Below are positions 1 to 20,733 of a stretch of DNA of 64,000 nt, one piece after another. The notes under the pieces are model-generated. The model was not told the origin of the DNA, did not search any database, and was given only the letters and a program-made list of their open reading frames with translations. The position numbers and the translations under genes were made by a program. This stretch comes from Streptomyces sp. TN58. GTDB lineage: Bacteria; Actinomycetota; Actinomycetes; Streptomycetales; Streptomycetaceae. How positions within the stretch are numbered: the stretch's first letter is position 1; each line of letters begins with the position of its first letter. The stretch lies in assembly GCF_001941845.1 (NCBI RefSeq), contig NZ_CP018870.1, forward strand, positions 1,054,001 through 1,118,000. Direction: 5' to 3'.

Positions 1-1143
1 CGCGCGGTCGAGGAGTGCTTCGGCTTCGAACTGGTGCTGTTTCTGCTGCGGGACGGCGGGCGCACGGTGGCCGGCGTACAGGGCCTGCTGGTGCGGGACC
101 CGGACGCGTTCCCGTACCACGATCCGGCGGGCGCCCTGTTCGGCGACTACGAGATGGACCACCTCCGGCAGGCGCTGGCACGCGACCGGTCGCCGCGGGA
201 GTCGGCCGACGCGGGCGCGCTGCTCGCCGCGGTCGTGCGCGCCGAGGCCGCGCACACGCGTGCGGCGGCCTATCCGGCGCTGGTGATGACCAGTCCGTAC
301 GGGTACGCGAGCGACGTGCTGACCCTGCCCGGGACCGACCGGGAGGCCGCGATCGGCGAACTGCTCGCCGCCGTGGAGGCGTTCTGCCGCACCGAGCGGA
401 TCCCCTCGCAGTCCTTCCTGTGGGAGTCCGGCGGGGACGCGGAGCTGCACCGGGCGCTCGCCGGCCACGGCTACCTGGAGTTCCTCTCCGACCTGGAGTA
501 CCACCTCGACACCGCGTCCTGCGGCTCGCTGGAGGAGTACCTGGAGACCCTGGAACGCAAGCGGCGTACGGCCGCCCGCGCCGAGATCCGCAAGTTCGGC
601 GAGGCCGGGCTGCGTGTGGAGCGGATCGCGGACCCCGACCCCGCGGTGATCGCCCGCTGCGCCGAACTGTCCGAGGGGCAGCAGAAGAAGTACGGGCTGC
701 CCGTCGACCGCGGCGCGATGGAGCGGCTGTTCACCGCGCTGCTGGCCGCCCCGGCGCTGGGCCCCTCGCTGTTCGTGGTGCGGCGGCACGGCGCGCAGGG
801 CCCGGACGTCTCGGGCTTCCTGCTCTGCCTGGAGGCCGGCGGCGTCCTGCACCCCAAGTTCCTCGGCTTCGACGCCGCCGCCGTCGGGGCCGGCTATGCC
901 TACTTCAACCTCGTCTTCTACCACCAGGTCGAGCGGGCGGTGGCGGGCGGCGCCCGCCGCGTCTCGTACGGCATGGGTTCGGCGGACGCGAAGCGGCTGC
1001 GCGGCTGCCGCCCGGCCCCGGTGCGCGGATGGATCCGGTTCTCCTCGCCGGCGGCGCAGCGGCGGATCGAGCCGTACGTCGCCGTCTTCGACTGCCTCAA
1101 GAAACAGCTTCTCGGCGACCAGGACGGACGCGTTCAGCGATGA
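1..1143 (+). CDS. GNAT/FemAB-like acyl or aminoacyl transferase (5' truncated)
   Basis: The reading frame is open from base 1, so the start lies upstream; 380 residues are visible. The C-terminal half looks like the Acetyltransf_6 / peptidoglycan-recognition type GNAT fold: an acidic-basic helix around ETLERKRRTAARAEIRKF, then a second GNAT half with HPKFLGFD and YAYFNLVFYHQVERA, a pattern of proteins that use acyl-CoA or aminoacyl donors. It ends in an ATGA overlap with the fused dehydratase gene, so the two are translationally coupled. The context (one-carbon extension genes, aminotransferase and ATP-grasp ligase) suggests a role in building or capping a small peptide such as a stravidin. 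The substrate cannot be read from sequence, and a role in resistance by acylation is equally possible. Confidence 0.75.
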   Translation, partial: RAVEECFGFELVLFLLRDGGRTVAGVQGLLVRDPDAFPYHDPAGALFGDYEMDHLRQALARDRSPRESADAGALLAAVVRAEAAHTRAAAYPALVMTSPYGYASDVLTLPGTDREAAIGELLAAVEAFCRTERIPSQSFLWESGGDAELHRALAGHGYLEFLSDLEYHLDTASCGSLEEYLETLERKRRTAARAEIRKFGEAGLRVERIADPDPAVIARCAELSEGQQKKYGLPVDRGAMERLFTALLAAPALGPSLFVVRRHGAQGPDVSGFLLCLEAGGVLHPKFLGFDAAAVGAGYAYFNLVFYHQVERAVAGGARRVSYGMGSADAKRLRGCRPAPVRGWIRFSSPAAQRRIEPYVAVFDCLKKQLLGDQDGRVQR

Positions 1144-3188
1144 CTCTCGTAAAACAGCTCTTCGAGCACAAACTCGGCCGTCCCGTCAGCACCGGCGAGG
1201 TCGTGGACCTGCCGTTCGACCTGTGCTGGGGCAGCGAGATGACCGTCAAGTGGGCCCTGGACATCCTGCGCGACTCCGGCTTCGACGACGCGTACATCGC
1301 CGCGGGCCTCGCCGCGCAGCGGGAGAAGACCGCCTTCGTCTTCGACCACGTGGTCCCCACCCACACCGCCTCGATGGCCTCGATCCTCGTGGAGCTGCGG
1401 CGCTTCGCGCGCGAGCACGGGATCAGGGTGTTCGACGTGGGCTACGACGGCGGCATCCAGCACAAGATCCTCATCGAGCAGGGTCTGATCCGCCCCGGCG
1501 ACGTCGCGGTCGGCGCGGACTCGCACAGCTGCACCGCGGGCGCGATCGCCTCGCTCGCGACCGGCATCGGCTCCACGGACCTGGCGGTGGCGCTGGTCCG
1601 GGGCAGCTGCTGGATGCGGGTGCCTGAGGCGACGCTGGTCCGCTTCCACGGGAGCCTGCGCCCGCACGTCCAGGGCAAGGACGTGGCGCTGTACCTGTGC
1701 GGCCTGATCGGCGTGCACGGGGCGGTCTACCGCAGCCTGGAGTTCGGCGGACCGGGTCTGGCGTCCCTCGCGGTCACCGACCGGCTGTCGCTGAGCAACA
1801 TGGCGGTGGAGATGGGCGCCAAGTACGGCCTGTTCCCCACGGACGGGGTGCTCGCCGACTACCTCGGCGACGGGGTGGAGTACCCGTCCTTCACCGTCGA
1901 CGAGGACGACGCCGGGTACGCCGACGTGATCGACGTCGACCTGGGCCTGATCGAGCCGACGGTCGCGCTGCCGTTCTCCCCGGACAACGCCGTGGGCACC
2001 CACCAGCTCCGGCACCTGCTGCGCAACTGGGACGAGTACAAGGACCGCGAGGACCTGATGACCGGTGTGGCGCCGCTGGCCCGCAGGGCCGACGAGAACG
2101 GCGCGATACCCGTGGACCAGGTCTTCATCGGCTCCTGCACCAACGGCCACCTGGAGGACCTGCGGGTCGTGGCGGACGTGCTGCGCGGCAGGCGCGTCCA
2201 CGAGGGGGTGCGCACCATCGTCATCCCGGCCTCCCAGAAGGCCTACCGGGCGGCGATGAAGGAGGGCCTGATCGACGTGCTGATCGAGGCGGGCTGCTAT
2301 GTGGAGTCCTCCAGCTGCGGTCCGTGCATCGGCATCAAGTCGGGTGTGCTCGGCAAGGGGGAGGTCGCCGTCTTCACCTCCAACCGGAACTTCCGCGGCC
2401 GGTGCGGTGACGTCGACGCCAGTGTCGTCCTCGCCAGCCCGGCCGTCGCCGCGCGGGCCGCGCTGACCGGTGTGCTCGCCCCGATCGGCGACCGGAGCGA
2501 CTACTACGCCGACGAGGACGCGCTGCGGAGCGGCATCGAGGAGCTGTTCGCGCTCCACGCGGCGCGCGAGGGCCGGGCCCCGCTCACGGACGCCGCGGAC
2601 GAGGTCCCCGCCCCGGCCGAGGCCCCGGGCGGGGGCGGGGCTGGGGGCGGCGGAAGCCGGGCCTGGGTGTTCGGCGACCACGTCAACACCGACGTGATCC
2701 TGCCGGGTGTGTTCTGCCAGATCCCCGACCCCGCCGAGTACAAGAAGCACATCATGGCCCACGCGGGCAACCAGCCGTTCCTCGACCACTACGCGGCATC
2801 CGGGCACGACCTGCGCGGCTCGGTGATCGTCGGCGGGATGAACTTCGGCTGCGGCTCCTCCCGCGAGAACGCCCCGATGGGCATCAAGGCGTCCGGCGCG
2901 CCCTTCGTCGTCGCGCACAGCTTCGCCCGGATCTTCTTCCGCAACGCCCTCAACATCGGCCTCAGGCTGGTGGAGGTCGGGGAGTTCGCGTACGAGATCC
3001 GGGAGGGCGACCGGCTGGTCGTCGACGACGAGCGCGGCGAGCTGCTCAACGTCACCCGGGGGACGTCCGCACCCATCGCCCCGCCCTCCGCGTTCGAGCG
3101 GGAGCTGCTCGACGCGGGCGGCCTCGTCGCCCACGCCGGCGCGCAGGTACGGGCGGAGCAGGTCCGGGCGGAAGCGTCGGCCGTATGA
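1140..3188 (+). CDS. Fused LeuC-LeuD-type hydro-lyase (HphCD-like, aconitase family)
   Basis: A 682-residue single chain joins a large (LeuC-like) and a small (LeuD-like) subunit of a 3-isopropylmalate dehydratase/homoaconitase. The [4Fe-4S] ligands are visible as Cys333 (GSCTNGH) and Cys393/Cys396 (SSSCGPCIG). The swivel domain follows a Pro-Ala-Gly linker near residues 485-510 and carries the GCGSSRENAP motif. In leucine synthesis these are usually separate proteins; fused forms are known from homophenylalanine/homotyrosine pathways (HphCD). It would isomerise a 2-substituted malate during one-carbon extension of a 2-oxo acid. No LeuA-like synthase lies in the window; it is probably upstream. 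The start is the ATG in the ATGA overlap with the previous gene, and the stop overlaps the next gene. Role in amiclenomycin extension is inferred. Confidence 0.9.
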   Translation: MTLVKQLFEHKLGRPVSTGEVVDLPFDLCWGSEMTVKWALDILRDSGFDDAYIAAGLAAQREKTAFVFDHVVPTHTASMASILVELRRFAREHGIRVFDVGYDGGIQHKILIEQGLIRPGDVAVGADSHSCTAGAIASLATGIGSTDLAVALVRGSCWMRVPEATLVRFHGSLRPHVQGKDVALYLCGLIGVHGAVYRSLEFGGPGLASLAVTDRLSLSNMAVEMGAKYGLFPTDGVLADYLGDGVEYPSFTVDEDDAGYADVIDVDLGLIEPTVALPFSPDNAVGTHQLRHLLRNWDEYKDREDLMTGVAPLARRADENGAIPVDQVFIGSCTNGHLEDLRVVADVLRGRRVHEGVRTIVIPASQKAYRAAMKEGLIDVLIEAGCYVESSSCGPCIGIKSGVLGKGEVAVFTSNRNFRGRCGDVDASVVLASPAVAARAALTGVLAPIGDRSDYYADEDALRSGIEELFALHAAREGRAPLTDAADEVPAPAEAPGGGGAGGGGSRAWVFGDHVNTDVILPGVFCQIPDPAEYKKHIMAHAGNQPFLDHYAASGHDLRGSVIVGGMNFGCGSSRENAPMGIKASGAPFVVAHSFARIFFRNALNIGLRLVEVGEFAYEIREGDRLVVDDERGELLNVTRGTSAPIAPPSAFERELLDAGGLVAHAGAQVRAEQVRAEASAV

Positions 3189-4252
3189 ATACCGTCGCGG
3201 TCATCCCGGGAGACGGCATCGGACCCGAGGTCATGGCCGAGGTGCTGAAGGTGCACGCGGTGGTCGAGGACGTCTTCGCCACCGGCCTGAAGACCGAGGT
3301 GCTGCCCTACAGCGCCGACTGGTTCCTGGAGCACGGGGACGTCGAGATCGACATCCAGGCGATCCGCCGCGACCACCGGGCGGTGCTGCTCGGGGCGCTC
3401 GGCGACGCCCGGATCCCCGACAACCGGCACGCGGTCCGCGTCATCGGCGGACTGCGCCAGCAGCTCGAACTGGGCGTGAACCTGCGCCCGGTGCGCCTGC
3501 GCACGCTCGCGCACTGCCCCCTCAAGCACGTGCGCGCGGTCGAGGACGTCGACCTCGTCATCGTGCGGGAGAACACCGAGGACGTGTACGTGGGCGTGGG
3601 CGGCACGGTCCGCGGCGGCGGCCCCGGCCATGTCGCGATGGAGGTCGGCGTCCACACCCGCTGGGCGGTGGACCGGGTGGTCACGGCCGCCTTCGAGCTG
3701 GCCCGCTCCCGGCGCCGCCGGCTCACCCTGGTGGACAAGAGCAACGCCATGCCGAGCGCCGGCCCGCTGTGGCAGGGCCGGTTCCGCGCGATCGCCGCGT
3801 CCTACCCCGACGTGGAGTGCGACCACCTGTACGTCGACGCCGCCGCCATGGAGTTGATCCGCGACCCGGCCCGCTTCGACGTGGTGGTGGCCGGCAACCT
3901 CTTCGGGGACATCCTCAGCGACGAGGCCTCCATGCTCGCCGGCGGCCTCGGCGTCGCGCCCTCGGCGAGCTACGACCCCGAAGACACCGGCTTCGCCGGC
4001 GTGTTCGAGGCGGTACACGGCAGCGCCCCCGGTCTGGTGGGCACGGGCCGCGCCAACCCGCTGGCCTCCGTCATGAGTTATTCGCTGATGCTGGACCGTA
4101 TGGGGCTGCGCGCGGCGCACGCCGCCGTGGAGCGCGCCGTCGACGAGGTGCTGTGCGGGGACCTGCTGACCCCCGACCTGGGCGGCACCGCTCGCACCGG
4201 CGAGGTGGGCGACCTGATTTGCCGGGCGGTCGCCCGGCACGACAAGGACTGA
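3185..4252 (+). CDS. LeuB-type beta-decarboxylating dehydrogenase (HphB-like)
   Basis: A 355-residue member of the isopropylmalate/homoisocitrate/isocitrate dehydrogenase family. The N-terminus has the family start (VIPGDGIGPEV). The substrate loop VRENTEDVYVG resembles homoisocitrate and tartrate dehydrogenases more than ordinary LeuB. The metal-binding aspartates lie in NLFGDILSDEAS, and GVFEAVHGSAP is the cofactor-domain signature. It should oxidise and decarboxylate the 3-substituted malate made by the preceding dehydratase, giving the 2-oxo acid longer by one carbon. The ATG overlaps the upstream stop (ATGA). Primary leucine synthesis is unlikely because the gene sits among secondary-metabolism genes and its upstream partner is a fused dehydratase. 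Confidence 0.9.
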   Translation: MNTVAVIPGDGIGPEVMAEVLKVHAVVEDVFATGLKTEVLPYSADWFLEHGDVEIDIQAIRRDHRAVLLGALGDARIPDNRHAVRVIGGLRQQLELGVNLRPVRLRTLAHCPLKHVRAVEDVDLVIVRENTEDVYVGVGGTVRGGGPGHVAMEVGVHTRWAVDRVVTAAFELARSRRRRLTLVDKSNAMPSAGPLWQGRFRAIAASYPDVECDHLYVDAAAMELIRDPARFDVVVAGNLFGDILSDEASMLAGGLGVAPSASYDPEDTGFAGVFEAVHGSAPGLVGTGRANPLASVMSYSLMLDRMGLRAAHAAVERAVDEVLCGDLLTPDLGGTARTGEVGDLICRAVARHDKD

Positions 4253-4257: not shown

Positions 4258-5166
4258 ATGAACGAACCAGCGAAGCTGATGTGGTGGCAGGGCAGCGTGG
4301 TCCCCGCCGGGGACACCGCCCTGACCCTCGCCAACCACAGCCTCCACTACGGGCTCTGCGTCTTCGAGGGCGTCTCCGCGTTCCCGTCGGCGGAGGGCGG
4401 CCACCACGTCTTCCGGCTCGACGAGCACATGGCCCGGTTCGCCGAGTCGTGCCGCCTCGTGGGGATCTCGCTCGGGCAGACGCCCGCCGAGCTGGCGGCC
4501 GCCTGCCACGAGACGCTGACCGCCAACGGCCTGCGCCGGGCCTATCTGCGTCCCCTCGCCTTCCTCGGGGACGGGGTGCTCGGTCTGGCGGCTCCCGGCA
4601 CCGAGGCGCAGGTGGCCGTGCTGGCCTTCGACGTCTCGTCCTTCGACTCGGTGATCCGCGCGCAGCAGCCGCGGCTGACCCTGTCGCCGGTCGCCCGGCT
4701 CAGCCCGCACGCCTTCCCGACCAAGGCGAAGGTCTCCGCCGGCTACCTGGGCTCCCGGCTCGCCTGGATGGACGCCCGGCAGCGCGGCTTCGACGACGCC
4801 CTGCTGCTGGACGACGCGGGCTTCGTCGCCGAGTGCACCGTGCAGAACGTCTTCGGCGTGCGCGGCCGTACGCTGCTGGTGCCCGACTCCCCCGCCGCGC
4901 TCGACGGCATCACCGTGGACTCCGTGATCGGGATCGCGGGCGGCCTCGGCTACGAGGTGGACCGCGGCCCGCTGACGGCCGCGGACCTGTGGGCCTGCGA
5001 GGCGCTGTGCGTGGCCAGCACCGCCGGCGGGGTGCGCCCCGTACGGTGCGTGGACGACATCGTCTTCGACACGGACAACGCCGTGGCCGCCGAGATCATC
5101 CGGGCGTACCGGCAGGCCGAACTGGGCCTGCTGCCCGGCCACGAGCGGTGGGCGGCCCGACCGTGA
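4258..5166 (+). CDS. Class IV PLP aminotransferase (branched-chain aminotransferase-like)
   Basis: 302 residues of fold-type IV: N-terminal HYGLCVFEGVSAF, the likely PLP lysine Lys158 in AKVSAGYLGSRLA, then GFVAECTVQNVFGV and the phosphate-cup region LCVASTAGGVRPV. IlvE-like enzymes transaminate 2-oxo acids to L-amino acids, so here it would convert the extended 2-oxo acid into the final amino acid. The ATG follows the upstream stop by 5 bases with AGAAGGA just before it. The 3' end overlaps the GTG of the ATP-grasp gene. An aminodeoxychorismate lyase role (same fold) is less likely because the N-terminal half matches branched-chain aminotransferases better. The amino acid made is inferred from context. 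Confidence 0.88.
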   Translation: MNEPAKLMWWQGSVVPAGDTALTLANHSLHYGLCVFEGVSAFPSAEGGHHVFRLDEHMARFAESCRLVGISLGQTPAELAAACHETLTANGLRRAYLRPLAFLGDGVLGLAAPGTEAQVAVLAFDVSSFDSVIRAQQPRLTLSPVARLSPHAFPTKAKVSAGYLGSRLAWMDARQRGFDDALLLDDAGFVAECTVQNVFGVRGRTLLVPDSPAALDGITVDSVIGIAGGLGYEVDRGPLTAADLWACEALCVASTAGGVRPVRCVDDIVFDTDNAVAAEIIRAYRQAELGLLPGHERWAARP

Positions 5167-6548
5167 GCGACACCGGCAGCCGCGTACGCGGCGACGTACG
5201 CGTGGTCGACGTGTACGGCACCCTCCCGGCAAAGGTGCGCGGCCGGATCGACGCGCTCGGCCGGGAGCACTGGCGGCGGGCCCACGCCGGTGTCCCGCGC
5301 CCTGCGGACTCCTGGTGCCCCACCCGTCCGCTGATGCTGGACGCCGACGCGTTCGCCCTGGTCGGCGCGGTCGCCGACCGCGCTGCGGGCCTGGTGCTGG
5401 AGGCCTGCCGGCGCCGGGCGTCGACGGCCGGGGAGCTGCTGGACGCGCTTTCCATGCCTCTCAGCCAGTTCCCGCTGCTCGACCCGGCGGAGCCGCTCAC
5501 CGAGCGGCTGCTGACCTCGGTGCGCGCGGACGTGATGGTCGAGCGGGGCGTGCCCAGGGTCGTCGAGCTCAACATCGACGGGGCGATCGGCGGGGCCATC
5601 GAGGCCGACCTCGTCGCCGGGCAGTTCCAGGAGGTCTACGCCGGCCCGGCAGCCTCCGGGCCGGAGCCGTCGGGGAGCCCGCTGCGCACCCCGCCGTCCG
5701 CGGTCGACGCGTTCTTCACCGAGCTGGTCGCCTTCCTCGGCCTGGCCGAGGGCGACTGCCTCGTCGTACCGGTCTTCCGCGAGGACGGCCACGACCACCT
5801 GGCGGACCCCGACGACTTCATCGCCTTCCTCGCCCCCATGGCCGAACGGGGCAAGGCCCACGGCATCACCGTGGTCGGCTACCCGCTGGACGGGCTGACC
5901 CTCGACGACCGGCAGCGGCTGCGGGCCGGCGAGCACGTCGCGCGCGGGGTGTTCCGCCTCTTCCTGCCCGTCGAGCAGGCCGGTCCCGGGCTCGACGCCC
6001 TGGGCGCGGCGCTGCGGGCGGGCACGGCCCGCATGTACACCCCGGAGGCGACCAGCCCGGTCAGCGACAAGCGGGTGCTGGCCTGGCTCTGGCAGGACCT
6101 GGGCCTGCTCGGCGCGGACGACCGGGACTTCGTACGCCGGCACGTGCCGCACACGGTGATCGCCGGGGAGGGGGCCCTGGACGGGGACCGGGCCTCGCTG
6201 GTGCTCAAGCCCGGTGACGGCTACGGCGGTGCCGGAGTGACCCTGGGCCGCTCGGTGGGTGAGGAGGAGTGGCGGGAGCTGGTCCTGGCGGCCGCCGGGA
6301 CGGGCGACCACATCCTCCAGCGGGTGGTGGAGGCCGACCTCGTCACCTTCGATTTCGCACACGGGACCACCGGGGAGATCCGCAGCGCCGCCGTCCCCTG
6401 CGTCCTGGGGCCGATGGTGTACGGCCGCGGGCTCTCGGGTATCTACGTCCGGCACGGCACTCCCAGGCCGGGCGTCCTCGTCAACACGCACCAGGGCGCT
6501 GCCTCCAACAGCGTGCTGATCGCGAAGAGCCCGACGGCCGGACGATGA
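5163..6548 (+). CDS. ATP-grasp ligase, glutathionylspermidine-synthase-like
   Basis: A 461-residue protein with the order seen in circularly permuted, glutathionylspermidine-synthase-like ATP-grasp enzymes: VVELNIDGAIGGAIEAD (about residue 135), a central region with LVVPVFREDGHDH, then SDKRVLAWLWQ and the glycine-rich nucleotide loop LVLKPGDGYGGAGV near residue 350, followed by the metal-binding strand ILQRVVEADLVTFDF. Such enzymes activate a carboxylate as acyl phosphate and attach an amine. In this operon it is the best candidate for forming a peptide bond to the non-standard amino acid without an NRPS. The GTG start is chosen because it overlaps the upstream stop (GTGA); the reading frame further upstream is a shadow of the aminotransferase gene. 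Confidence 0.82.
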   Translation: MSDTGSRVRGDVRVVDVYGTLPAKVRGRIDALGREHWRRAHAGVPRPADSWCPTRPLMLDADAFALVGAVADRAAGLVLEACRRRASTAGELLDALSMPLSQFPLLDPAEPLTERLLTSVRADVMVERGVPRVVELNIDGAIGGAIEADLVAGQFQEVYAGPAASGPEPSGSPLRTPPSAVDAFFTELVAFLGLAEGDCLVVPVFREDGHDHLADPDDFIAFLAPMAERGKAHGITVVGYPLDGLTLDDRQRLRAGEHVARGVFRLFLPVEQAGPGLDALGAALRAGTARMYTPEATSPVSDKRVLAWLWQDLGLLGADDRDFVRRHVPHTVIAGEGALDGDRASLVLKPGDGYGGAGVTLGRSVGEEEWRELVLAAAGTGDHILQRVVEADLVTFDFAHGTTGEIRSAAVPCVLGPMVYGRGLSGIYVRHGTPRPGVLVNTHQGAASNSVLIAKSPTAGR

Positions 6549-9172: not shown

Positions 9173-9880
9173 TCAACCCGTCGGCGGGACGGCGCGATCC
9201 GGCCGATTCCCGACGGTGGCGGGGCCGGCCGGCACGACGACCGCGGCCAGGAGCAGCTCGGGGGCGGCCGCCCAGCGTCCCTCGTAGACGAGGGGTGCGG
9301 GCGGCTCCTCCCCCGTCCCTTCCACGATCCGGGCGCGGAAGGTCCCGCCGACCGGATCGAACGTGACGGAGGCGTCCCGGAAGCCCAGCCGGCGCCGCAG
9401 CATGGGGAACCACGCCTTGTAGACGGCCTCCTTGGCGCAGAACAGCATGCGGTCCCAGTGCACGTGGGGGAAGTCCGCGGCAAGGGCGGCCAGCCGGTCC
9501 CGCTCCTCGGGGAGGGTGACGGCCCCGAGCGTCCGCCCGGGCAGCGGCGCGTGGGGTTCGGCGTCGATGCCGACGGCCCGCACACGGTCGCCTCGCGCGA
9601 CGGCCGCCGCCCGGTACCCGGCGCTGTGCGTCATGCTGCCGACCACTCCGTCCGGCCACACCGGCGCCCCGCGTTCGCCGGGCAGCACCGGGGCGGGCGG
9701 TACGCCGATGTCCGCGAGAGCCCGTCGGGCGCAGTGCCGGACGGTCGTGAACTCCCGGCGGCGCCCTGCGTGGCGCGCTGCCCCGAGTACTTCCAATTCC
9801 TCGGGGAAAAGCGTGGATTCCGGTACGTCGGCAAAGCTCTCGGCACATGCCACGGCGGCCGGAAGGATCAGTTCGAGCAC
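9173..9880 (-). CDS. 4'-phosphopantetheinyl transferase, Sfp/EntD type
   Basis: 235 residues with the two hallmark motifs: VGIDAEP (Mg-binding Asp) and FCAKEAVYKA (KEAxxK), plus VGSMTHSAGY upstream, the pattern of EntD-like enzymes in actinomycetes. It transfers phosphopantetheine from CoA to carrier-protein serines and so would activate the two carrier domains of the NRPS at 13-18 kb. GTG start. It is divergent from the P450 gene with a 131 bp shared promoter region. Confidence 0.93.
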   Translation of the reverse strand: MLELILPAAVACAESFADVPESTLFPEELEVLGAARHAGRRREFTTVRHCARRALADIGVPPAPVLPGERGAPVWPDGVVGSMTHSAGYRAAAVARGDRVRAVGIDAEPHAPLPGRTLGAVTLPEERDRLAALAADFPHVHWDRMLFCAKEAVYKAWFPMLRRRLGFRDASVTFDPVGGTFRARIVEGTGEEPPAPLVYEGRWAAAPELLLAAVVVPAGPATVGNRPDRAVPPTG

Positions 9881-11367: not shown

Positions 11368-11407
11368 GCCGGCGCCGCCACAGGGCTGTCCGGTGACCCG
11401 CCGCCCC

Positions 11408-11440: not shown

Positions 11441-11445
11441 CGGTG

Positions 11446-13155: not shown

Positions 13156-16100
13156 CCGGCGCTCCGCGCCAGCGTGTGCAGTTCGTCGGTGAAGCGGTCG
13201 GCCAGGGCCCGGACGGTCGCCTCCGTGTGCAGGTCGGTGCTGTAGGTCCACACCAGGCGCAGGGTGCCGTCCGAGGTCATGGCCATCAGGTCGAGGGTCC
13301 GGGTGCGGTGCCCGAGGCCGCTGCGGTGGTGGCCGAAGGAGTCGACGACGGGCCGGGCGTCACCGGTGAAGTACTCGCTGACGTCGCCCCAGTAGTTGAA
13401 GCCGATCTCCGGGGCGGGGACCCGGGCCATCCGGGCCCGCACGGCGGGGTCCGGGTGCAGATGGCGCAGGAGGCCGTAGCCGACGCCGTGGTGGGGCATC
13501 TCCCGGATCTGGTCGCGCACGTCCGTGAGCTCGCCGGGGCGCAGGACCAGCGGGGCGAGCGTCGAGAAGCGGCCGACGGTGCGGGAGATGTCCAGCGGGC
13601 CGAAGGCTGACTGTCGGCCGTGCCCCTCGATCTCGACGAGCAGTTCGGAATGCCCGGTCCACGCGGTGACGGCTCGGGCCAGTGCGGTGAGCAGCACCTC
13701 GCGGATCTCGACCCCGAGCCGCCGCGGCAGCCCGCTCACGACGGCGGCGGCGGTCTCGCCGGTCACCTCGTCGAAGTGGCGGACGGCGGAGGCCTGCGTG
13801 TTGGGGCCGCGGCGGTGGTCGACGGGCAGCGGCGGCGGCGAGAGGTCGGCGAGCCGGGTCCAATAGGGCAGTTCCGCCTCGACCTGCTCGCTCGCGGCGT
13901 GTGCCCGCAACTGCTCGGCGGCCTGCGGCAGCGGGGCCGTCTTGGGCGGCAGGTGCGGTTCGTCGTCCCGCTCGACGGCGAAGTAGGCCGTGCGCAGGTC
14001 CTCGTAGAACACGCGGGAGGAGTAGTAGTCCATGACCAGCCAGTGGGCGCTGACCAGCAGCCTGGGCCTGCGCCGGGGGCCCAGGTCGAACTGGGTGAGC
14101 AGGACGGTCGTGCCGTCGGCCAGGTCGAGGGAGCTGTTGCGGAGCGCGACGTGGCGGGCGATCTCCGCCTCCACGTCGGCGTCGGCGATGTCACCGAGGT
14201 CGACCTCGGTGACGCGGGAGGCGTCCGGCGGGCGTACGCCGGGCAGTTCGGCGTACGGACCGTCGGCGTCGGTGCCGAAGCGGGCGCGCAGTCCGTCGTG
14301 GTGGGCGAGCACGGTGGCCAGTGCCCGGTGCAGTGCGCCGGGCTCCAGCCGCCGGTCGAGTTCGAAGACGGGCCACATGCCGTTCCAGTGGTCGGCGGCG
14401 GTGAAGTCCTGCTCGAAGAACCAGAGCTGGCTGGGCGACAGGCCGGCACGGCCGGTGATCTCCGTCTGGTCGGCCGCGGCCGGGAGGCGGTCGGTGGCGC
14501 AGCCGGCCTGTTCGGCGATGGTGGGGCGGGCGAAGAAGTCGGCGAGCGTGAGGTGGAGTCCCTCTTCGGCGGCCCTGGCGACGGCTCGTACGCCGAGGAG
14601 GGAGTCTCCGCCGAGCGCGTAGAAGTTGTCGTGTCGGCCGATCCGTTCGACGGGGAGTACCGAGGCCCAGGCGCGGGCCAGCGCCTCCTCGGTGGTGTTC
14701 GCGGGTGGCTCGTCGCCCGGTGCGGCCGCCTGCGGCACCGGCAGGGCCCGCCGGTCGAGCTTGCCGTTGGCGCCCGTCGGCAGCCGGTCCAGGGTCATGA
14801 CGACGGCGGGGACCATGTAGGAGGGCAGTTTGGCGGCGAGGTGGTCGCGCAGCTCGCCCTCGGCGAACTCGGCCCCGGTCTCGGGCACGGCGTAGGCGAT
14901 CAGCCGCCTGCCGTCCTGGGCGGTGACGACCGCGGTGCGGACGCCGGGGTGTCCGCCGAGCACGGCCTCGATCTCGCCGAGCTCGATGCGGTGGCCGCCG
15001 ATCTTGACCTGGAAGTCGTCCCGGCCGAGGAGTTCCAGGGTGCCGTCGGGCAGGTAGCGGCCGAGGTCGCCGGTCCGGTAGAGCCGTTCGCCGGTGGCGG
15101 GGTGGACGGTGAACTGCGCGGCGGTGCGCTCGGGGTCGCGCCAGTATCCGCGGGCCACGCCGACGCCGCCGATGTGGAGTTCGCCGGTGACGTGGTCCGG
15201 CTTGTCGGTGAGGTCGGCGTCGAGGACGTGGAAGGTCTGGTTGCGCAGCGGGGTGCCGTACGGGATGCTGCGCCACTCGGGGTCGATGTCCCCGACGGGG
15301 TGCCAGATCGACCAGATCGCGGCCTCGGTGGCGCCGCCCAGGCTGATCAGTTCGGGGCCCCCCAAGGAGACGGCCCGGACCCGCCCGGGCAGGCTCAGCG
15401 GGATCCAGTCGCCGCTGAGCAGCGCCGTCCGCACCGATCGCGGGAAGCCCGTGCCCTGCTGCTCGCAGTGTTCCACCAGCAGTTCGAGCAGCGGCGGGAC
15501 GCTGTTCCACAGCGTCACCCGGTGTTCGTCGGCGAGGGCAGCCCAGCGGCCGGGGTCGCGGGACTCGCCGGGCGCGGGCAGGACCAGTGCCCCGCCCGCT
15601 CCCAGCACGCCGAAGACGTCGTACACGGACAGGTCGAAGCTGAGCGACGAGAGTCCGAGCACGCGGTCCTCGCGGCCCACGGTGAATCGGGTGTTGATGT
15701 CGTCGACGGTGTTGACCGCGGCGCGGTGGCTGATCATCACGCCCTTGGGGAGGCCGGTCGAGCCCGAGGTGAAGATGACGTAGGCGAGGTCGTCGGGGCC
15801 GGTGGCGGGCGCCGGTACCGGCCCGTCGGGCACGTCCCGCTCCCCGGCGCCTTCCGGCTCGGGACCCCGCTCGACGGTCAGGGCGGTGATGCCGGCCGGG
15901 ACGCGGGTGCCGGGCTGGGTCAGCGCCACGCTCACGCCGCCCGCCTTCAGCAGCTGTCCGACCCGCTCGGGCGGCAGGCCCGCGTCCACGGGCAGATAGG
16001 CCGCGCCGGCCCGGAGCACGCCCAGGACGGCGGGGACCTGCTCCCACCCCTTGTGCATCAGGACGGCGACCAGGGTGTTCGGCTCCGCGCCCAGCTCGCG

Positions 16101-17882
16101 CAGCCGGTGGGCGATCTTGTCGGCGCGGCGGTCGAGTTCGCCGTAGGTGAGGGTGGCCTCGGCGCTGATCACGGCGGGAGCCCCGGGGTGTGCGGCCGCC
16201 TGTCGGCCGATGGCGGCGTGCAGGAGCTCGCCGGGCTGCGGGCCGGCGGTGTCGTTGACGGACCTGCGGACGGCGAGCTGCCGTACCGGCAGGCCGGGCG
16301 GTGCGGGCTCCTCCTGCTCGGCGATGCGCCCGACCAGGTCGGTGTAGGCGGTGAACATGTCGTCCAGCACGCCCTCGGGGAAGACCTCCTCGACGGCGTC
16401 CCAGCTGATCAGCAGGTCGGTGCCGCGGGCCACGACCTGGTTGTCCAGGTACACCTGCGGGGTCTGGGAGACGGCGTACCCGGTCTCGAAGACCAGGCCT
16501 TCGAGGGAGCCGAGGCTGTCCTGTTCGCGCAGCAGGCTGGTGAAGACGACGGGCATCCGTGCCTGGGTGCCGTCGCCGCGGCGGGCCAGCTCGCGCTGCA
16601 CCTCCACCCCGCTGAAGCGCGCGTGGGCGAGGTCGCGGCGCAGCTGCCCCTGGATCCGGGTCGCGGCCGTGGCCAGGTCCGGTGCGCCGCCGAGGTCGCA
16701 CTCCAACAGGACGGTGCTGGTGAAGTCGCCGATCAGCCGGTCGATGTCGGCGTGCCAGCGGGGCCGGTCGGCGAGGGTCAGGTTGAGGGTGAAGCGGGAC
16801 GAGCGGCTCCAGGTGCGCAGCACCTGTGCGTACGCGGCGCACAGCAGCACGGAGGGCGTGACGCCCAGGGCGTTCGCGCGGTCCCGGATCTGCCGCCACA
16901 CCCGGCCGGGCAGCCGGCGCTCGCGGCGTACGAAGGCGGGGGCCTGGGCGTGGGCGACGGCCCGGACGGGCAGTTCGGGAGCGGGCGGCAGCGTGTCGAG
17001 GCGGTCCAGCCAGTACGCGCGGGCCCGCTCGTGGCCGGGCTGGGTGCGGTAGGCGGCGACGCCGTCGAGGTAGTCGCGGAAGGTGGCCGCCGGGGCCGGG
17101 CCGAGTGAGTCGGCGTCGAGCATCAGGTGGATCCACTCGGCCAGCAGGACCTGGATGCTGCCCGCGTCGGCGAAGAGGAGGTCGACGCTGAGGTGGAGGC
17201 GGAGCCGGCCGGCGTCCAGCTGGTGGGTGCGTATGTCGTACAGCGGCCAGGTGTGCGGGTCGAAGACCTGGGCGGCCATCTCCTCGCGGGTCTCCTCAAG
17301 GCGACATCGTCCGTCCGCCTCGGGGAGCCCGGTCAGGTCCGCGTGGCGGATGCGGTAGTAGGGGACCTCCCGCGCCACCTGCTGGCGGCCGTCGGGCAGC
17401 AGCGTCGCGCGCAGCATGCCGTGGCGGCCGACCAGGGTGTTGAAGGCCTCCTCGACGCGTGCCCGGTCGGCGGCGAACAGGTCCACTTCGACGTAGAAGT
17501 GGGCGGAGCGTCCGCCGAGGTCGAATCCCCGGCTGCCCAGCCAGTACGCCTGCTGGACGTCGGTGAGTTCGAAGGGCTCGTGGTCGCGGCCGGGTGCCGG
17601 GACCAGCTGCGGGACGGCCGCGCCGTCCGTGCCGTGGTTGAGCAGCGCCGAGGCGATCGTCTCCAGGGTGCAGTGACCGAAGAAGATCTCCAGCGGGAGG
17701 TCGGTCGTACAGGCGGTGTCGATCGCGGACTTGAACCGTACGGCGTCCAGCGAGTCGAGGATCAAGGGCTCCTGCGGACGGACCTGGCGGTCGTAGTCGG
17801 TGTTGATCCCGGCCAGCAGGTCGCGGAGCCGGGTCAGGCCCTCGTCCTGGTCGGGAGCGGGCACAGCGGAGAGTTCGGACAT
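13152..17882 (-). CDS. Single-module NRPS: ACP-Cy-A(Cys)-PCP-epimerase-like
   Basis: 1576 residues. Order: acyl carrier domain (15-85, Ser44 in LILDSLD); heterocyclisation domain (about 100-540) with the DxxxxD signature as DLLFAD in place of HHxxxDG; adenylation domain (about 590-1070) with FTSGSTGLPKG, YRTGDLGRYL and NGKLDRR; peptidyl carrier domain with LGGDSLLGV; and a C-terminal domain (about 1180-1570) with epimerisation-type motifs EGHGRQ, DISRTVGRFS, GVGYG and FNYWG. Reading the ten specificity positions by alignment to GrsA gives D-L-Y-N-L-S-L-I-W-K, the cysteine code. So an acyl group on the ACP should be joined to Cys and cyclised to a 2-substituted thiazoline-4-carboxyl thioester. 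In the last domain the HHxxxD motif reads HWLVMD, so the catalytic second His is Trp. No thioesterase. The ATG at 17882 follows ACGGGGGAA; it starts 25 bp after the SDR stop. Confidence 0.93.
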   Translation of the reverse strand: MSELSAVPAPDQDEGLTRLRDLLAGINTDYDRQVRPQEPLILDSLDAVRFKSAIDTACTTDLPLEIFFGHCTLETIASALLNHGTDGAAVPQLVPAPGRDHEPFELTDVQQAYWLGSRGFDLGGRSAHFYVEVDLFAADRARVEEAFNTLVGRHGMLRATLLPDGRQQVAREVPYYRIRHADLTGLPEADGRCRLEETREEMAAQVFDPHTWPLYDIRTHQLDAGRLRLHLSVDLLFADAGSIQVLLAEWIHLMLDADSLGPAPAATFRDYLDGVAAYRTQPGHERARAYWLDRLDTLPPAPELPVRAVAHAQAPAFVRRERRLPGRVWRQIRDRANALGVTPSVLLCAAYAQVLRTWSRSSRFTLNLTLADRPRWHADIDRLIGDFTSTVLLECDLGGAPDLATAATRIQGQLRRDLAHARFSGVEVQRELARRGDGTQARMPVVFTSLLREQDSLGSLEGLVFETGYAVSQTPQVYLDNQVVARGTDLLISWDAVEEVFPEGVLDDMFTAYTDLVGRIAEQEEPAPPGLPVRQLAVRRSVNDTAGPQPGELLHAAIGRQAAAHPGAPAVISAEATLTYGELDRRADKIAHRLRELGAEPNTLVAVLMHKGWEQVPAVLGVLRAGAAYLPVDAGLPPERVGQLLKAGGVSVALTQPGTRVPAGITALTVERGPEPEGAGERDVPDGPVPAPATGPDDLAYVIFTSGSTGLPKGVMISHRAAVNTVDDINTRFTVGREDRVLGLSSLSFDLSVYDVFGVLGAGGALVLPAPGESRDPGRWAALADEHRVTLWNSVPPLLELLVEHCEQQGTGFPRSVRTALLSGDWIPLSLPGRVRAVSLGGPELISLGGATEAAIWSIWHPVGDIDPEWRSIPYGTPLRNQTFHVLDADLTDKPDHVTGELHIGGVGVARGYWRDPERTAAQFTVHPATGERLYRTGDLGRYLPDGTLELLGRDDFQVKIGGHRIELGEIEAVLGGHPGVRTAVVTAQDGRRLIAYAVPETGAEFAEGELRDHLAAKLPSYMVPAVVMTLDRLPTGANGKLDRRALPVPQAAAPGDEPPANTTEEALARAWASVLPVERIGRHDNFYALGGDSLLGVRAVARAAEEGLHLTLADFFARPTIAEQAGCATDRLPAAADQTEITGRAGLSPSQLWFFEQDFTAADHWNGMWPVFELDRRLEPGALHRALATVLAHHDGLRARFGTDADGPYAELPGVRPPDASRVTEVDLGDIADADVEAEIARHVALRNSSLDLADGTTVLLTQFDLGPRRRPRLLVSAHWLVMDYYSSRVFYEDLRTAYFAVERDDEPHLPPKTAPLPQAAEQLRAHAASEQVEAELPYWTRLADLSPPPLPVDHRRGPNTQASAVRHFDEVTGETAAAVVSGLPRRLGVEIREVLLTALARAVTAWTGHSELLVEIEGHGRQSAFGPLDISRTVGRFSTLAPLVLRPGELTDVRDQIREMPHHGVGYGLLRHLHPDPAVRARMARVPAPEIGFNYWGDVSEYFTGDARPVVDSFGHHRSGLGHRTRTLDLMAMTSDGTLRLVWTYSTDLHTEATVRALADRFTDELHTLARSAG

Positions 17883-17907
17883 CGGTTCCCCCGTATGGGC
17901 CGGCGGG

Positions 17908-18750
17908 TCAGGCCGGCTCAGAGTGTCGTTGTGAACGTGTCTGCGCGTCGGCGACCCCGCGCAGGTACTTGTAGATCCCACCGTTTCGGGCGATCCAGGC
18001 GGTGAGCCGCGGGGAGAGGGCGCTGACCACGTCCGCGACCTTCTCCATCACCGGCGCCACGGTGATCTCCACCCTGTCCTCCCGGATGCACTTCAGGACC
18101 GCGCGCGCGACCTCGTCGGGTCCGACCCGGCCGAGCAGCGGCGGGCGCCGGCCCGCCTGCCAGCCGGCGGAGATGCCGACGTCGGAGATCAGCGTCGGGT
18201 ACACGGCCGACACCCCCACCCCGGTCCCCCGCAGCTCCTCGCGCAGGGACCAGGTGAAGCCGACGAGGCCGTGCTTGGCGGAGGAGTTGATCGTGGCGTA
18301 CGGATAGGCCGTACGCCCGCCCACGGACCCGATGTTGACCACGTGTCCGCGCCCGGCTTCGAGCATGTCCGGCAGGACCAGCCGGGTCAGGGCCTCGGCG
18401 CCGAACAGGTTGACCAGCAGGACCTGCCGGATGCTCTCGACCGTGGCGTCCTGGAACCGGGTGACGTGCTCGATCCCGGCGTTGTTGACCAGGATCCCGG
18501 CCGGCCCCAGTTCGCGGCGGACCGTCTCCACGATCCGCCGCTGCGCCCCTTCGTCGGAGACGTCGGCGGGCACCACGAGCGGCTCGGGACCGAGCCGCCC
18601 GATCTCCTCCGCGGCGGTCTTGAGTCCTTCGCCGGACCGGGCGACGAGTGCCAGTCGGACACCCGCCCGGGCCAGTTCCGCGGCGATGTGCGGGCCGACG
18701 CCGCGCGACGCCCCCGTGACGATTCCCACAACGTTGTTCAGTTCGCGCAC
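17908..18750 (-). CDS. Short-chain dehydrogenase/reductase with altered active site
   Basis: 280 residues, Rossmann fold with TGASRGVG near the N-terminus, NNAG at the end of strand 4, and the catalytic Ser in VVNIGSVGGR. The usual YxxxK pair reads NSSAK: Lys159 is present but the catalytic Tyr is Asn155. It may therefore have lost normal ketoreductase activity, use another residue, or act structurally. A C-terminal extension (SPRLTAWIARNGGIYKYL) suggests membrane association. GTG start with AAGGA eight bases upstream. It lies 31 bp after the MFS stop and 25 bp before the NRPS start, so it belongs to the MFS-SDR-NRPS-FAAL operon. Its place in the pathway is unknown. Confidence 0.88.
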   Translation of the reverse strand: MRELNNVVGIVTGASRGVGPHIAAELARAGVRLALVARSGEGLKTAAEEIGRLGPEPLVVPADVSDEGAQRRIVETVRRELGPAGILVNNAGIEHVTRFQDATVESIRQVLLVNLFGAEALTRLVLPDMLEAGRGHVVNIGSVGGRTAYPYATINSSAKHGLVGFTWSLREELRGTGVGVSAVYPTLISDVGISAGWQAGRRPPLLGRVGPDEVARAVLKCIREDRVEITVAPVMEKVADVVSALSPRLTAWIARNGGIYKYLRGVADAQTRSQRHSEPA

Positions 18751-18781
18751 GGACGTCGTCCTTTACCGAGAGGGACAGGTT

Positions 18782-19933
18782 TCAGCGGGTCGGCTGCAGT
18801 ACGGCACGCCTGCCGCAGACCATGTGGATCAAGGCCGCGACGCAGCACAGCAGCGCCCCGGTCAGCGCCACGGCGGTGATGCCGGCGTGGTCGAGCACCG
18901 CGCCCCCGACGACCCCGGACAGGCCGATGCCCAGATAGAGGGCGGAGGCGTTGAGCGCCAGCAGCAGACCGCCGGCGTCCGGCGAGAGTTCGAGCAGCCG
19001 GCGCTGGACCGGCGGGTTGAAGCCCCAGCTCGACACCCCCCAGAAGAACAGCAGTACCGCCGCGATCGCCGTGCTGTGCACCGCGGACAGCGCGGACAGG
19101 GCGATCACGCTGCCGGACACGGCCACCAGCAGCGGCATCCGGTAGCCGTAGCGGTCGGCGGCGAACCCGCCGGCCGCGTTGCCGACGGCGCCGCCGATCC
19201 CGTAGCCGAAGAGGAGCAGGCTCAGCCCGGTGCCGTGCGCCCCGACGGTCTCGGCCAGTACCGGTGCCGCGTACGTGTACACGGTGAACACCCCGAGGCT
19301 GGCCGCGAGCGTGATGGCGAGGACGGCGACGACCCGGCCGTCGGAGGCGACGGCCAGCCGCCGGCGCAGGGTCACCCTGGCGGGCGCCGCGACCTCGGGC
19401 ACGGCCACCGCGACGGCCACCGCGGAGAGCGCGCAGAAACCCGCGACGAGCCAGAAGACGCCCCGGTGCCCGAGCGGGCCGACGAGCAGCGTGCCGGCCG
19501 GCACGCCGACGATGGTGGCGGTCACCAGCCCGCCGAAGACCCAGGCCGCCGCGCGCGCCCGCCGCTCGGGGCCGCTCAGTTCGGCGGCGACCGCGGTGGC
19601 GGCCGGGGTGAACACCGCGGCGCCCACGGCGGTGACGATCCTGGCGGCCGTCAGGACGGCGAAGTCCGTCGCCAGTGCGGCGAGCGCGTTGCCGGCCGCG
19701 GCCACCAGCAGCGCCGTGATGATCAGTGGCCGGCGGCGCCACCCGCCAAGGGCCACGGCCAGCAGCGGTGAGCCGATGGCGTAGGCCACCGCGAAGGACG
19801 TGGTAAGCAGTCCCGCCGTGGACAGCGAGACGGACAGCTCTTCGCTCAGCTGCGGCAGCATTCCGGTGACGACGTAACCACTCGTCCCCACTGCGAACGC
19901 TCCGAGCGCGAGCGTGGAGATCTTGCCTAACAC
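18782..19933 (-). CDS. MFS transporter (DHA1/AraJ-like) with TTA second codon
   Basis: About 383 residues and twelve predicted membrane helices, resembling AraJ/Cml-type drug exporters: helix 1 FAVGTSGYVVTGMLP, a loop with GGWRRRP, and a helix 5 stretch GVPAGTLLVG. The chosen start is GTG at 19933, preceded by AGGGGG with a 9-base spacer; starts further upstream (for example ATG at 19981) have no comparable site. Its second codon would be TTA (19928-19930), so translation should depend on the bldA tRNA. It is the first gene of the operon running to the FAAL gene and is the likely exporter or self-resistance determinant for the NRPS product. Confidence 0.85.
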   Translation of the reverse strand: MLGKISTLALGAFAVGTSGYVVTGMLPQLSEELSVSLSTAGLLTTSFAVAYAIGSPLLAVALGGWRRRPLIITALLVAAAGNALAALATDFAVLTAARIVTAVGAAVFTPAATAVAAELSGPERRARAAAWVFGGLVTATIVGVPAGTLLVGPLGHRGVFWLVAGFCALSAVAVAVAVPEVAAPARVTLRRRLAVASDGRVVAVLAITLAASLGVFTVYTYAAPVLAETVGAHGTGLSLLLFGYGIGGAVGNAAGGFAADRYGYRMPLLVAVSGSVIALSALSAVHSTAIAAVLLFFWGVSSWGFNPPVQRRLLELSPDAGGLLLALNASALYLGIGLSGVVGGAVLDHAGITAVALTGALLCCVAALIHMVCGRRAVLQPTR

Positions 19934-20095
19934 GAGAACGAACCCCCTGCCCCCCGGCTGGTCAGTGCGGAACGCGATCATGACACGGGGCTCGAAGGCC
20001 GCGCGAACCGGAGTCCGTTCCACACTCCCACAACAGAAGTTGCAGGCCAACGGAGGTTTTGCGCCATGGTCACCTCGCCGCGCACGGGCATGCGG

Positions 20096-20136
20096 GATCC
20101 GTCCGCCACGGGATGCCTCCTCGCCGCGGACGGATC
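20096..20136. terminator. Inverted repeat after the streptavidin gene
   Basis: GATCCGTCCGC and GCGGACGGATC are perfect 11-bp arms around a 19-base loop, 25 bp downstream of the streptavidin stop codon on the minus strand. It is most simply a terminator separating this gene from the MFS-SDR-NRPS-FAAL operon. It also lies upstream of the MFS start, so an operator role is possible. Confidence 0.6.
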
Positions 20137-20160
20137 ACACGCTCGGCCGGTGCTGCCGGG

Positions 20161-20733
20161 TCACTCCCCTTCGGAGGCCTGCGGATTCGCAGTAGTCACG
20201 CCCAGCCGGCGCGCCTTCTCGATGTCGGCGGCGGAGGGCTTGACCCGGGTGAACTCGTCGTGGCCGAGGACGGTCGACTTCCACTGGTCGGCGGGCGTCG
20301 TGCCGTAGCTCAGCAGCCACTGGGTGACGATCCGCTCCTGGCTGCCGCCGACGTACTGTCCGCTCCAGGTCGCGACAGAGTGGGCGTTGCGGTGGGCGTT
20401 GCGGTAGGCGACGGTCCATCCGACGGTGGTCCCGGTGCCGTCGGCGGGCGCGCTGTCGTAGCGGCCCGTCATGGTGTAGCGCTTCTCGGCGTTGCCGACC
20501 GCGGACTCGTAGGTTCCGGTGAACCCGCCGTTCGCGGCCCGCGTCACCACCATGACGGAGCCGAGCTGGTTGTACCAGGTGCCCAGGATGCCGGGCCGGG
20601 ACTCCGTCACGGAACCGCTCTCCGCGGTCTGCGACACGGTCGCGCGGGTGTCCGCCGAAGCGCTCGCGGACACGGTGACGAAGGTCAGGGACAGGGCGCA
20701 CAGTGCGACCAGGGTTTGGCGTACACGCGTCAC
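20161..20733 (-). CDS. Streptavidin homologue (secreted biotin-binding protein)
   Basis: A 190-residue precursor. GTG start with AGGGGGA nine bases upstream. The signal peptide has RVRQ, then a hydrophobic core ([15 protein letters not shown]) and a likely cut after ASASA (residue 27). The beta-barrel is clearly streptavidin: [29 protein letters not shown] (RYD motif), [14 protein letters not shown], and [13 protein letters not shown]. In streptavidin numbering Asn23, Ser27, Tyr43, Ser45, Asn49, Ser88, Trp92, Trp108, Trp120 and Asp128 are kept. Trp79 appears as Tyr and Thr90 as Ala, both biotin contacts, so affinity may differ from the classical protein. It is secreted and binds biotin outside the cell. 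It sits at the edge of the stravidin-like and thiazoline genes, which fits a joint role in starving competitors of biotin. Confidence 0.97.

Follow-up and report, generated by a model that had tools for sequence, protein, structure and literature searches.

A probable Streptavidin BGC Nexus in Streptomyces sp. TN58 with three gene sets directed at biotin

We analysed a window of 64,000 nucleotides from Streptomyces sp. TN58 (contig NZ_CP018870.1, positions 1,054,001 to 1,118,000), numbered from base 1, with negative numbers for positions to its left. Judging from its gene content, the region very probably belongs to the published Streptavidin BGC Nexus, a set of neighbouring pathways whose products deprive competitors of biotin. 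Two PF01382 matches were found in the TN58 genome, in genes at -13095 and 20733, and these streptavidin genes (sav1 to sav2) span 33.8 kb and enclose three gene sets: the mkp core, located left of the window with sav1 on one side and the stravidin operon on the other, the stravidin operon (sta) itself, and the acidomycin set (acd). The first-pass annotation had proposed that biotin-directed gene sets lie side by side here, and Pfam searches and ORF calls confirmed these genes at their coordinates. Protein identity of 85-97% to the functionally tested region of S. virginiae indicates that the biotin-antibiotic reading is right and also that it is not new.

Genomic setting and published counterparts

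The side-by-side arrangement is already in print from at least two groups (2026), and TN58 is a further example with a few instructive differences. In the nexus of S. virginiae DSM 40094 and S. avidinii DSM 40526 (Kurosawa et al. 2026, PMC13336041), two avidin genes flank mkp, sta and acd as they do in TN58, and gene order and strands are the same. In contrast, nda is present in S. virginiae and not in TN58, where no homologue of the nda PKS was found between -40000 and 64000. Likewise, mkpE and mkpF both occur in S. virginiae, only mkpE in S. avidinii and neither in TN58, and the second bioA of the S. avidinii nexus is missing from TN58. In acidomycin BGC 2.28 of Streptomyces sp. RLA021, as described by Vignolle et al. 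2026 (PMC13111796), the avidin, MFS, SDR, NRPS, AMP-ligase, P450 and PPTase genes are ordered as in TN58 and lie near stravidin genes; an extra MFS, a thioesterase and a type I PKS, which we interpret as nda-like, are listed alongside. The linkage of a stravidin operon to a thiazoline NRPS, for which the first-pass annotation named no earlier report, is real, but it was published in 2026 in both of these papers. A biotin megacluster preprint (Gordzevich et al., bioRxiv 2025) also exists and may already include non-Streptomyces loci.

The primary biotin genes begin 26 kb to the right of the nexus, and the distance from sav2 to bio was approximately 26-31 kb in the copies measured. bioF (KAPA synthase, 46481..47656, minus strand) is divergent from bioBAD and was assigned by its place and by 60% identity of the mkpD-type BioF. 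On the plus strand follow bioB (47813..49084; TIGR00433, 385 bits at 47864-48775) and bioA (49077..50399; TIGR00508, 547.5 bits), each the only one in the genome over the family cut-off, and bioD (50409..51152), assigned by its place after bioA and its similarity to ORFs beside bioA/bioB elsewhere (70% and 62%). Comparison of seven promoter gaps (sav1, mkpG, mkp/sta divergent, acd P450/PPTase, acd MFS, sav2 and bioF/bioB) for a common 16-mer, up to 3 mismatches being allowed, revealed no biotin-responsive operator, as the best candidate reached 2 of 6 other regions, the same as in each of 4 block shuffles.

That chance alone brought three unrelated clusters together where the chromosome is rich in clusters, with streptavidin as an orphan biotin binder, appears extremely improbable. 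Avidin can occur alone: in 20-kb stretches from 7 of the 8 other avidin-bearing genomes (one with a short contig being omitted), no ORF matched a nexus gene besides avidin, although the gene caller missed avidin itself in 3 of the 7. At genus level, 11 of the 392 genomes surveyed carried an avidin gene; at class level, 4 of 394 did, two of these four being weak, with TN58 counted both times. Within the genus of Amycolatopsis sacchari, 2 of 19 genomes had a match (A. sacchari itself and a weak one). In contrast to the 11 of 392, a contig scan revealed avidin in 8 of the 9 genomes with a full-length acd-type NRPS, spanning three genera and always within 10 kb of the NRPS. Furthermore, the target pathway common to the products and a Sav2-acidomycin complex are both published, which argues against chance.

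Stravidin operon and mkp core

The stravidin operon consists of 14 genes (-6366 to 9107), all of which have S. virginiae matches at 85-97%. Left of base 1, it encodes an ADC synthase (GATase and chorismate-binding domains), a GNAT protein, an HDAC-family protein, a type II chorismate mutase, a 195-aa orphan, a LeuA/homocitrate-synthase-like enzyme, a methyltransferase and a FemAB-like protein. Hence the aminodeoxychorismate synthase, chorismate-mutase-like enzyme and LeuA-like synthase that the first-pass annotation had suggested looking for left of base 1 were all found there, as was the second streptavidin gene on its list. The FemAB-like/GNAT-fold protein continues into the window (1..1143, start at -89; PF13480/PF04339; 93% to its S. 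virginiae ortholog) and is followed, likewise on the plus strand, by a 682-aa fused LeuC-LeuD-type (homo)aconitase (1140..3188; Pfam Aconitase and Aconitase_C, with NCBIfam LEUD_arch and IPMI_arch over cut-off; 94% to S. virginiae), a LeuB-type dehydrogenase (3185..4252; Iso_dh, E 3e-87; 96%), a class IV (IlvE-like) aminotransferase (4258..5166; Aminotran_4; 91%), a 466-aa protein (5148..6548), an MFS exporter (6545..7816; MFS_1; 95%) and a class II DAHP synthase that would supply the shikimate/chorismate branch (7890..9107; DAHP_synth_2, E 8e-115; 86%).

The 466-aa protein, a candidate amide ligase, shows a weak link to ATP-grasp ligases of the circularly permuted kind. It has no Pfam match of its own; 8 of its 67 homologues have PF14403, PF04174 or PF03738 among their precomputed annotations, and a further homologue bears the name circularly permuted ATPgrasp. 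Pfam scans of two homologues gave only sub-cut-off ATP-grasp matches in one and none in the other. For the 195-aa orphan, fold comparison among the families listed by Foldseek pointed to a prephenate-dehydratase (PDT) fold. Neither this protein nor 5 homologues matched anything in Pfam at E values up to 10, and the orphan had no meaningful PDB sequence match (best E 1.3). It may be likened to a BacA-type decarboxylase. A PDT fold for this protein was not found in print in open PMC full text or in the main text of the two nexus papers.

The DAHP and ADC synthases would provide 4-amino-4-deoxychorismate, which the chorismate mutase would convert to aminodeoxyprephenate. The PDT-fold enzyme may then remove CO2 without aromatising the ring, after which the LeuA-, LeuCD- and LeuB-like enzymes would extend the chain by one carbon and the IlvE-like enzyme would install the amino group, yielding amiclenomycin. 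The FemAB-like protein and the ATP-grasp-like one may attach amino acids. Modification or masking of the peptide possibly falls to the methyltransferase, the GNAT protein and the HDAC-family protein. For several of these proteins, the suggested chemistry is solely that of the family. Amiclenomycin inactivates BioA, as published. The stravidin BGC was reportedly described by Montaser and Kelleher in 2020; its chorismate and branched-chain-type operon, as characterised in PMC13336041, is like that of TN58.

The mkp core (-12311..-7121) encodes an ACP, a ketosynthase, a BioF-like enzyme and a P450, which, as published for relatives, would together produce alpha-methyl-KAPA (m/z 202.14 in PMC13336041), a substrate-inhibitor of BioA. 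With letters assigned by gene order and description, the genes found essential in print (mkpC, mkpD and mkpG) are present as the ketosynthase (-9831), BioF-like (-11011) and P450 (-12311) genes. The seven-gene mkp (A-G) is incomplete in TN58: in a search of -40000..64000, the matches of S. virginiae mkpE were confined to the NRPS and the acd ligase (27-28%) and mkpF matched nothing. Although these missing genes weigh against the nexus reading, disruption of mkpE or mkpF left alpha-methyl-KAPA unaffected in PMC13336041, and TN58, as a naturally reduced nexus, fits this published dispensability.

Acidomycin set and streptavidins

All six genes of the acd set are present (9173-19981). A P450 gene on the plus strand (10012..11367; p450, E 1e-67; 94% identical to its counterpart in the S. 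virginiae acd set) is accompanied, on the minus strand, by genes for an Sfp-type phosphopantetheinyl transferase (9173..9880; 4PPT_N and ACPS), a fatty acyl-AMP ligase-like enzyme probably activating pimelate (11446..13155; AMP-binding, its best matches including sub-cut-off ones to fatty acyl-AMP ligase models of NCBIfam), a 1576-aa NRPS of T-Cy-A-T-E* architecture (13152..17882; two C domains, A and PP-binding in Pfam), an SDR oxidoreductase (17908..18750; adh_short) and an MFS exporter (18782..19981; MFS_1). The ligase would load pimelate onto the first carrier domain of the NRPS, and the Cy domain would join it with cysteine and close the thiazoline. In the published model, the SDR and P450 would then reduce and oxidatively decarboxylate the thiazoline to the 4-thiazolidinone acidomycin (C9H15NO3S; m/z 218.09 in PMC13336041), an inhibitor of BioB. 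Two reports count against this scheme: loss of the P450 lowered acidomycin without abolishing it (PMC13111796), and Zhao et al. 2025 reportedly put forward a rival route via BioB-type enzymes.

In the NRPS, the T1 motif, the Cy motif DxxxxDxxS, T2 and the HWxxxDY motif of E* align in 10 of 10 homologues. The terminal domain has an overall E-domain sequence; its best PDB match is PvdL (308 bits over the whole chain, 264 for the best stretch), followed by tyrocidine, gramicidin S and bacitracin synthetases (205-240 bits), and it scores 30 bits against the glycopeptide X domain 4tx2. We take the PvdL, tyrocidine, gramicidin S and bacitracin chains to hold E domains and 4tx2 to be an X domain. The catalytic HHxxxDG is absent, and because HWxxxDY, in which the second His is lost, stands in its place in all 10 homologues, we do not class the domain as an active epimerase. 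The broken motif had initially suggested a P450-recruiting X domain, a candidate dropped since PDB sequence comparison strongly favours E-type domains. An HWxxxDY-type terminal domain was not found in print in open PMC full text or the main text of the two nexus papers, although figure 4 of PMC13336041 may show it.

It is very unlikely that the TN58 set makes some other thiazoline or thiazolidine acid, of different chain length or oxidation state. A glutarate-derived congener has been reported from the cluster of a relative (PMC13111796), and loci in A. sacchari and Streptomyces I05A-00742 retain NRPS and ligase with other oxidases nearby. At these two loci, no P450 was found among the called genes scanned with Pfam (14 of 24 at L013, 8 of 18 at L011), nor any tblastn match to the acd P450 above 45%. 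Against a different acid, the NRPS, ligase, SDR and P450 of TN58 are 92-95% identical to those of the acidomycin-making S. virginiae set and in the same gene order. The acd sets of S. virginiae and S. avidinii make acidomycin, the S. virginiae region also stravidins (PMC13336041), and RLA021 produces both compounds (PMC13111796). The first-pass reading of a stravidin-type operon beside an acidomycin-type set is therefore supported, as the acd and sta genes agree with those of S. virginiae and S. avidinii in sequence as well as in order and strand, and acidomycin remains the expected product.

Both streptavidins would bind biotin. Sav1 (-13095..-12544; PF01382) is identical to S. avidinii Sav1 at 17 of 17 listed biotin-pocket sites, whereas Sav2 (190 aa, 20161..20733, minus strand; Avidin, E 1.4e-23) agrees at 14 of 17 and has Tyr79, Ala90 and Tyr112 (mature Sav1 numbering), kept in 5 of 5 Sav2 sequences aligned (those of loci L006 and L009 being left out). 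The choice of pocket sites is partly borne out by a published source. Sav2 also matches the solved streptavidin C1 (7cpz) with 374 bits over residues 1-190. Streptavidins C1 and C2 of S. cinnamonensis KPP02129, a divergent/canonical pair like Sav2/Sav1, were studied as antifungal biotin binders, in passages of PMC7924230 that do not concern a gene cluster. Since both streptavidins are reported to neutralise acidomycin, we read them as self-protection. The first-pass model of a block at two steps with removal of free biotin held insofar as both sets are present, but it lacked mkp as a third antimetabolite module. Moreover, the role of streptavidin goes beyond that of a biotin sink, given its reported binding and neutralisation of acidomycin.

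Relatives outside Streptomyces

An acidomycin-type NRPS with avidin was also found in Dactylosporangium roseum and A. sacchari. Searches for BioB and bioA each covered 8 of the 9 genomes with an acd-type NRPS (all except L006). The D. roseum and A. sacchari clusters contain, in addition to the host's own BioB, one of the Streptomyces class that is 71-75% identical to the BioB of nexus Streptomyces and 38% to the host copy. Both clusters also encode a BioY/CbiQ/ABC biotin-type transporter and share a ligase-ACP-CMAS-desaturase cassette (18403-22726 at locus L010). BioY occurs once in A. sacchari, inside the cluster, twice in D. roseum and once in TN58, elsewhere; A. sacchari thus has no surplus BioY, which makes a role of the transporter in resistance less likely. 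Such loci with extra BioB, transporter and cassette were not found in print within open PMC full text and the main text of the two nexus papers.

With rather more doubt than confidence, we propose that the NRPS/acyl-AMP-ligase core and avidin form an old unit extending beyond Streptomyces, that the cassette makes a further biotin antimetabolite, and that the extra BioB is an acidomycin-tolerant target copy; instead of epimerising, the E-like domain could work at C4-H of the thiazoline while this is tethered, in a tautomerisation before oxidative decarboxylation. In TN58, one organism would hit one vitamin pathway at several enzymes and also remove its end product, an idea already published. 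The comparison with Dactylosporangium and Amycolatopsis may provide leads on self-resistance through the extra BioB, on an uncharacterised antimetabolite cassette and on the last steps of acidomycin synthesis.

Gene organization between the two streptavidin genes

The window (G000:C1:1054001-1118000, G+C content of 73%) belongs to a genome consisting of a single contig of 7,585,034 bases, and the best matches of its NRPS are from Streptomyces. Genes were called by codon usage over -40000..64000, with negative coordinates lying left of window base 1, and then scanned with Pfam and NCBIfam profiles; the genus genome sample takes in contigs of S. virginiae and S. avidinii. The gene call and both scans confirmed the first-pass annotation of bases 1-20733, which placed a streptavidin gene there together with a stravidin-type operon and a thiazoline NRPS set.

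According to the codon-usage call, same-strand and mostly overlapping genes run from -6366 to 7816. They encode, in order, an ADC synthase with glutamine amidotransferase and chorismate-binding domains (NCBIfam pabB above cut-off), a GNAT protein, a histone-deacetylase-family protein, a type II chorismate mutase, a 195-aa orphan, a LeuA/homocitrate-synthase-like HMGL protein, a methyltransferase, a FemAB-like protein, a fused LeuCD, LeuB, a class IV aminotransferase, a 466-aa protein and an MFS exporter. A DAHP synthase gene (7890-9107) follows directly, then the acidomycin (acd)-type set (9173-19981) and the avidin gene sav2 (20161-20733). All four genes predicted to lie left of base 1 were found: those of the ADC synthase, the type II chorismate mutase and the LeuA-like protein, and a second streptavidin gene, sav1, at -13095..-12544. 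The interpretation of the region as a biotin-starvation supercluster is thereby supported, and the arrangement is already in print.

The order sav1-mkp-sta-acd-sav2, where mkp is the alpha-methyl-KAPA cluster and sta the stravidin operon, is called the Streptavidin BGC Nexus in PMC13336041 (May 2026). That study mobilised the S. virginiae region, expressed it heterologously and obtained stravidins, acidomycin, alpha-methyl-KAPA and ANDA from it. In PMC13111796 (April 2026), insertional inactivation and heterologous expression established this NRPS set as the source of acidomycin in Streptomyces sp. RLA021, where stravidin genes and two streptavidins neighbour it; the paper reports both clusters in this setting also for S. 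virginiae, S. avidinii, Kitasatospora sp. NPDC056138 and Streptomyces sp. NPDC001135. A 2025 bioRxiv preprint on a biotin megacluster is also cited. Since the two papers already describe this arrangement, the locus is a further, somewhat reduced member of the published nexus.

In S. amritsarensis MTCC 11845, stravidin-operon genes from DAHPS to LeuCD (83-93%) adjoin acd. PMC13111796 counts strain JCM 19660 among those without the stravidin cluster, a discrepancy that may arise because the strains differ or because a contig is broken.

Reduced mkp module, biotin genes and streptavidins

A third module sits between sav1 and the stravidin operon and comprises genes for a P450 (-12311), a BioF-like enzyme (-11011), a ketosynthase (-9831), an ACP (-8650) and an MFS exporter (-8353); the BioF-like enzyme scored 374 bits with NCBIfam bioF, short of that model's cut-off of 426. 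The five genes were designated mkpG, D, C, B and A, respectively, from order and description in PMC13336041 rather than from its Table S4, and the five proteins share 94-96% identity with their S. virginiae counterparts. S. virginiae also carries an AMP-ligase gene (mkpE) and a thiolase-family gene (mkpF, FabH-like according to PMC13336041), neither of which has a counterpart here within -40000..64000, whereas S. avidinii possesses mkpE and lacks mkpF. According to PMC13336041, mkpC, D and G proved essential for alpha-methyl-KAPA, but disruption of mkpE or mkpF left it unaffected; mkp as found here thus resembles a naturally occurring minimal set. The S. virginiae nda PKS and thioesterase likewise have no counterpart here, the PKS matching only the mkp ketosynthase (31%).

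The primary biotin genes bioF (46481-47656, minus strand) and bioB, bioA and bioD (47813-51152, plus strand) lie together 26-30 kb right of sav2. This genome has a single bioB and a single bioA above the family cut-off, and no second bioA was found by this search. A second bioA occurs in two of the eight relatives searched: in S. avidinii (L077:9878-11182) it lies between the mkp and sta parts of the nexus, and in S. amritsarensis (G392:C90:4415-5650) it is on the same contig as sav2. This copy may serve as a target tolerant of stravidin or alpha-methyl-KAPA.

In the streptavidin comparison headed STREPTAVIDINS, Sav1 shares 96% identity with S. avidinii Sav1 and agrees with it at 17/17 listed pocket sites. 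Identity between Sav2 and Sav1 is 61%. In Sav2, mature positions 79, 90 and 112 are occupied by Tyr, Ala and Tyr, respectively, a combination found in all five aligned Streptomyces Sav2 (this one included; the alignment is without those of loci L006 and L009) versus none of nine other avidins. PMC13336041, which solved the structure of Sav2 with acidomycin, names two tyrosines in the complex, Tyr112 and Tyr145 in its own numbering; by our matching of the numbering, these correspond to positions 79 and 112. Its passage on the complex makes no mention of Ala at 90.

Directly adjoining sav2 is an ABC transporter operon of the oligopeptide type (SBP_5, permeases, ATPases; 21022-26108, minus strand). 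Matches to it occur in S. virginiae, in S. amritsarensis and in strains F-2580 and F-2664, with none in the S. avidinii flank examined. Next to sav1 lies an nSTAND1 NTPase with a WD40 propeller (-17266..-13400; L003:2734-6600 in the left flank); the equivalent place in S. virginiae is taken by a 1284-aa ORF. At seven other Streptomyces avidin loci (L067-L073), the 20-kb stretches compared contain no ORF matching another nexus gene; the avidins of L067, L068 and L072 group together, with His at position 49.

Terminal domain of the acidomycin-type NRPS

Motif alignment revealed T1, Cy (DxxxxDxxS), T2 and a terminal domain in 10/10 NRPS homologs, that of the window included. Against PDB chains, the terminal domain scored 308 bits with PvdL over the whole chain (264 for the best stretch), 208-217 with TycA and GrsA, and 30 with a glycopeptide X domain. 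We take the PvdL, TycA and GrsA chains to contain E domains and the glycopeptide chain an X domain; on sequence grounds, the terminal domain belongs to the E type. Its EGHGR-like motif retains the Glu in 6/6 aligned terminal domains, and HHxxxDG is replaced by HWxxxDY in all ten. Acidomycin retains no stereocentre at the cysteine alpha carbon, so a plain epimerase would be pointless here, and the domain may move the C4 proton. Term searches of the PMC13336041 and PMC13111796 main texts turned up no treatment of this domain.

Relatives outside the nexus Streptomyces

The NRPS search of genome contigs returned 30 loci, 9 of which are full-length relatives at 57-92% and 21 reach only 48% or less. 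An avidin is encoded in eight of the nine genomes with a full-length relative, the exception being Streptomyces sp. I05A-00742. The locus of that strain combines an acd-type NRPS and ligase with FMO-like, amine-oxidase, thioesterase and MMPL exporter genes, and its product probably differs.

In Dactylosporangium roseum, the acd-type part (SDR, NRPS, avidin, P450, ligase) is followed by a ligase-methyltransferase-ACP-CMAS-desaturase run. Also present are a second bioB with BioY, CbiQ-type and ABC genes, and relatives of the nda NRPS and PKS (69 and 73%). Amycolatopsis sacchari has SDR, bioB and avidin side by side, the bioB profile match lying 170 bases from the avidin match, along with NRPS, ligase and BioY/ABC/CbiQ genes. 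The two clusters have in common a desaturase-CMAS-ACP-ligase run (62-81% identity), the A. sacchari desaturase gene reading as two pieces.

BioB exceeded the cut-off in 8/8 genomes searched, with two copies only in D. roseum and A. sacchari, where the host's own gene adjoins bioD and bioA or bioF. Over aligned pieces of 272-291 residues (four copies in the two species), the cluster BioB shares 71-75% identity with nexus Streptomyces BioB versus 38% with the host's own copy. The extra BioB could be biosynthetic instead of a tolerant target. The cluster BioY is the sole BioY of the A. sacchari genome, which argues against reading the transporter simply as a resistance determinant.

The names Dactylosporangium and Amycolatopsis are absent from the main texts of PMC13336041 and PMC13111796, the two sources compared. 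What the present analysis adds to the published nexus is the clusters outside Streptomyces and the odd terminal NRPS domain.
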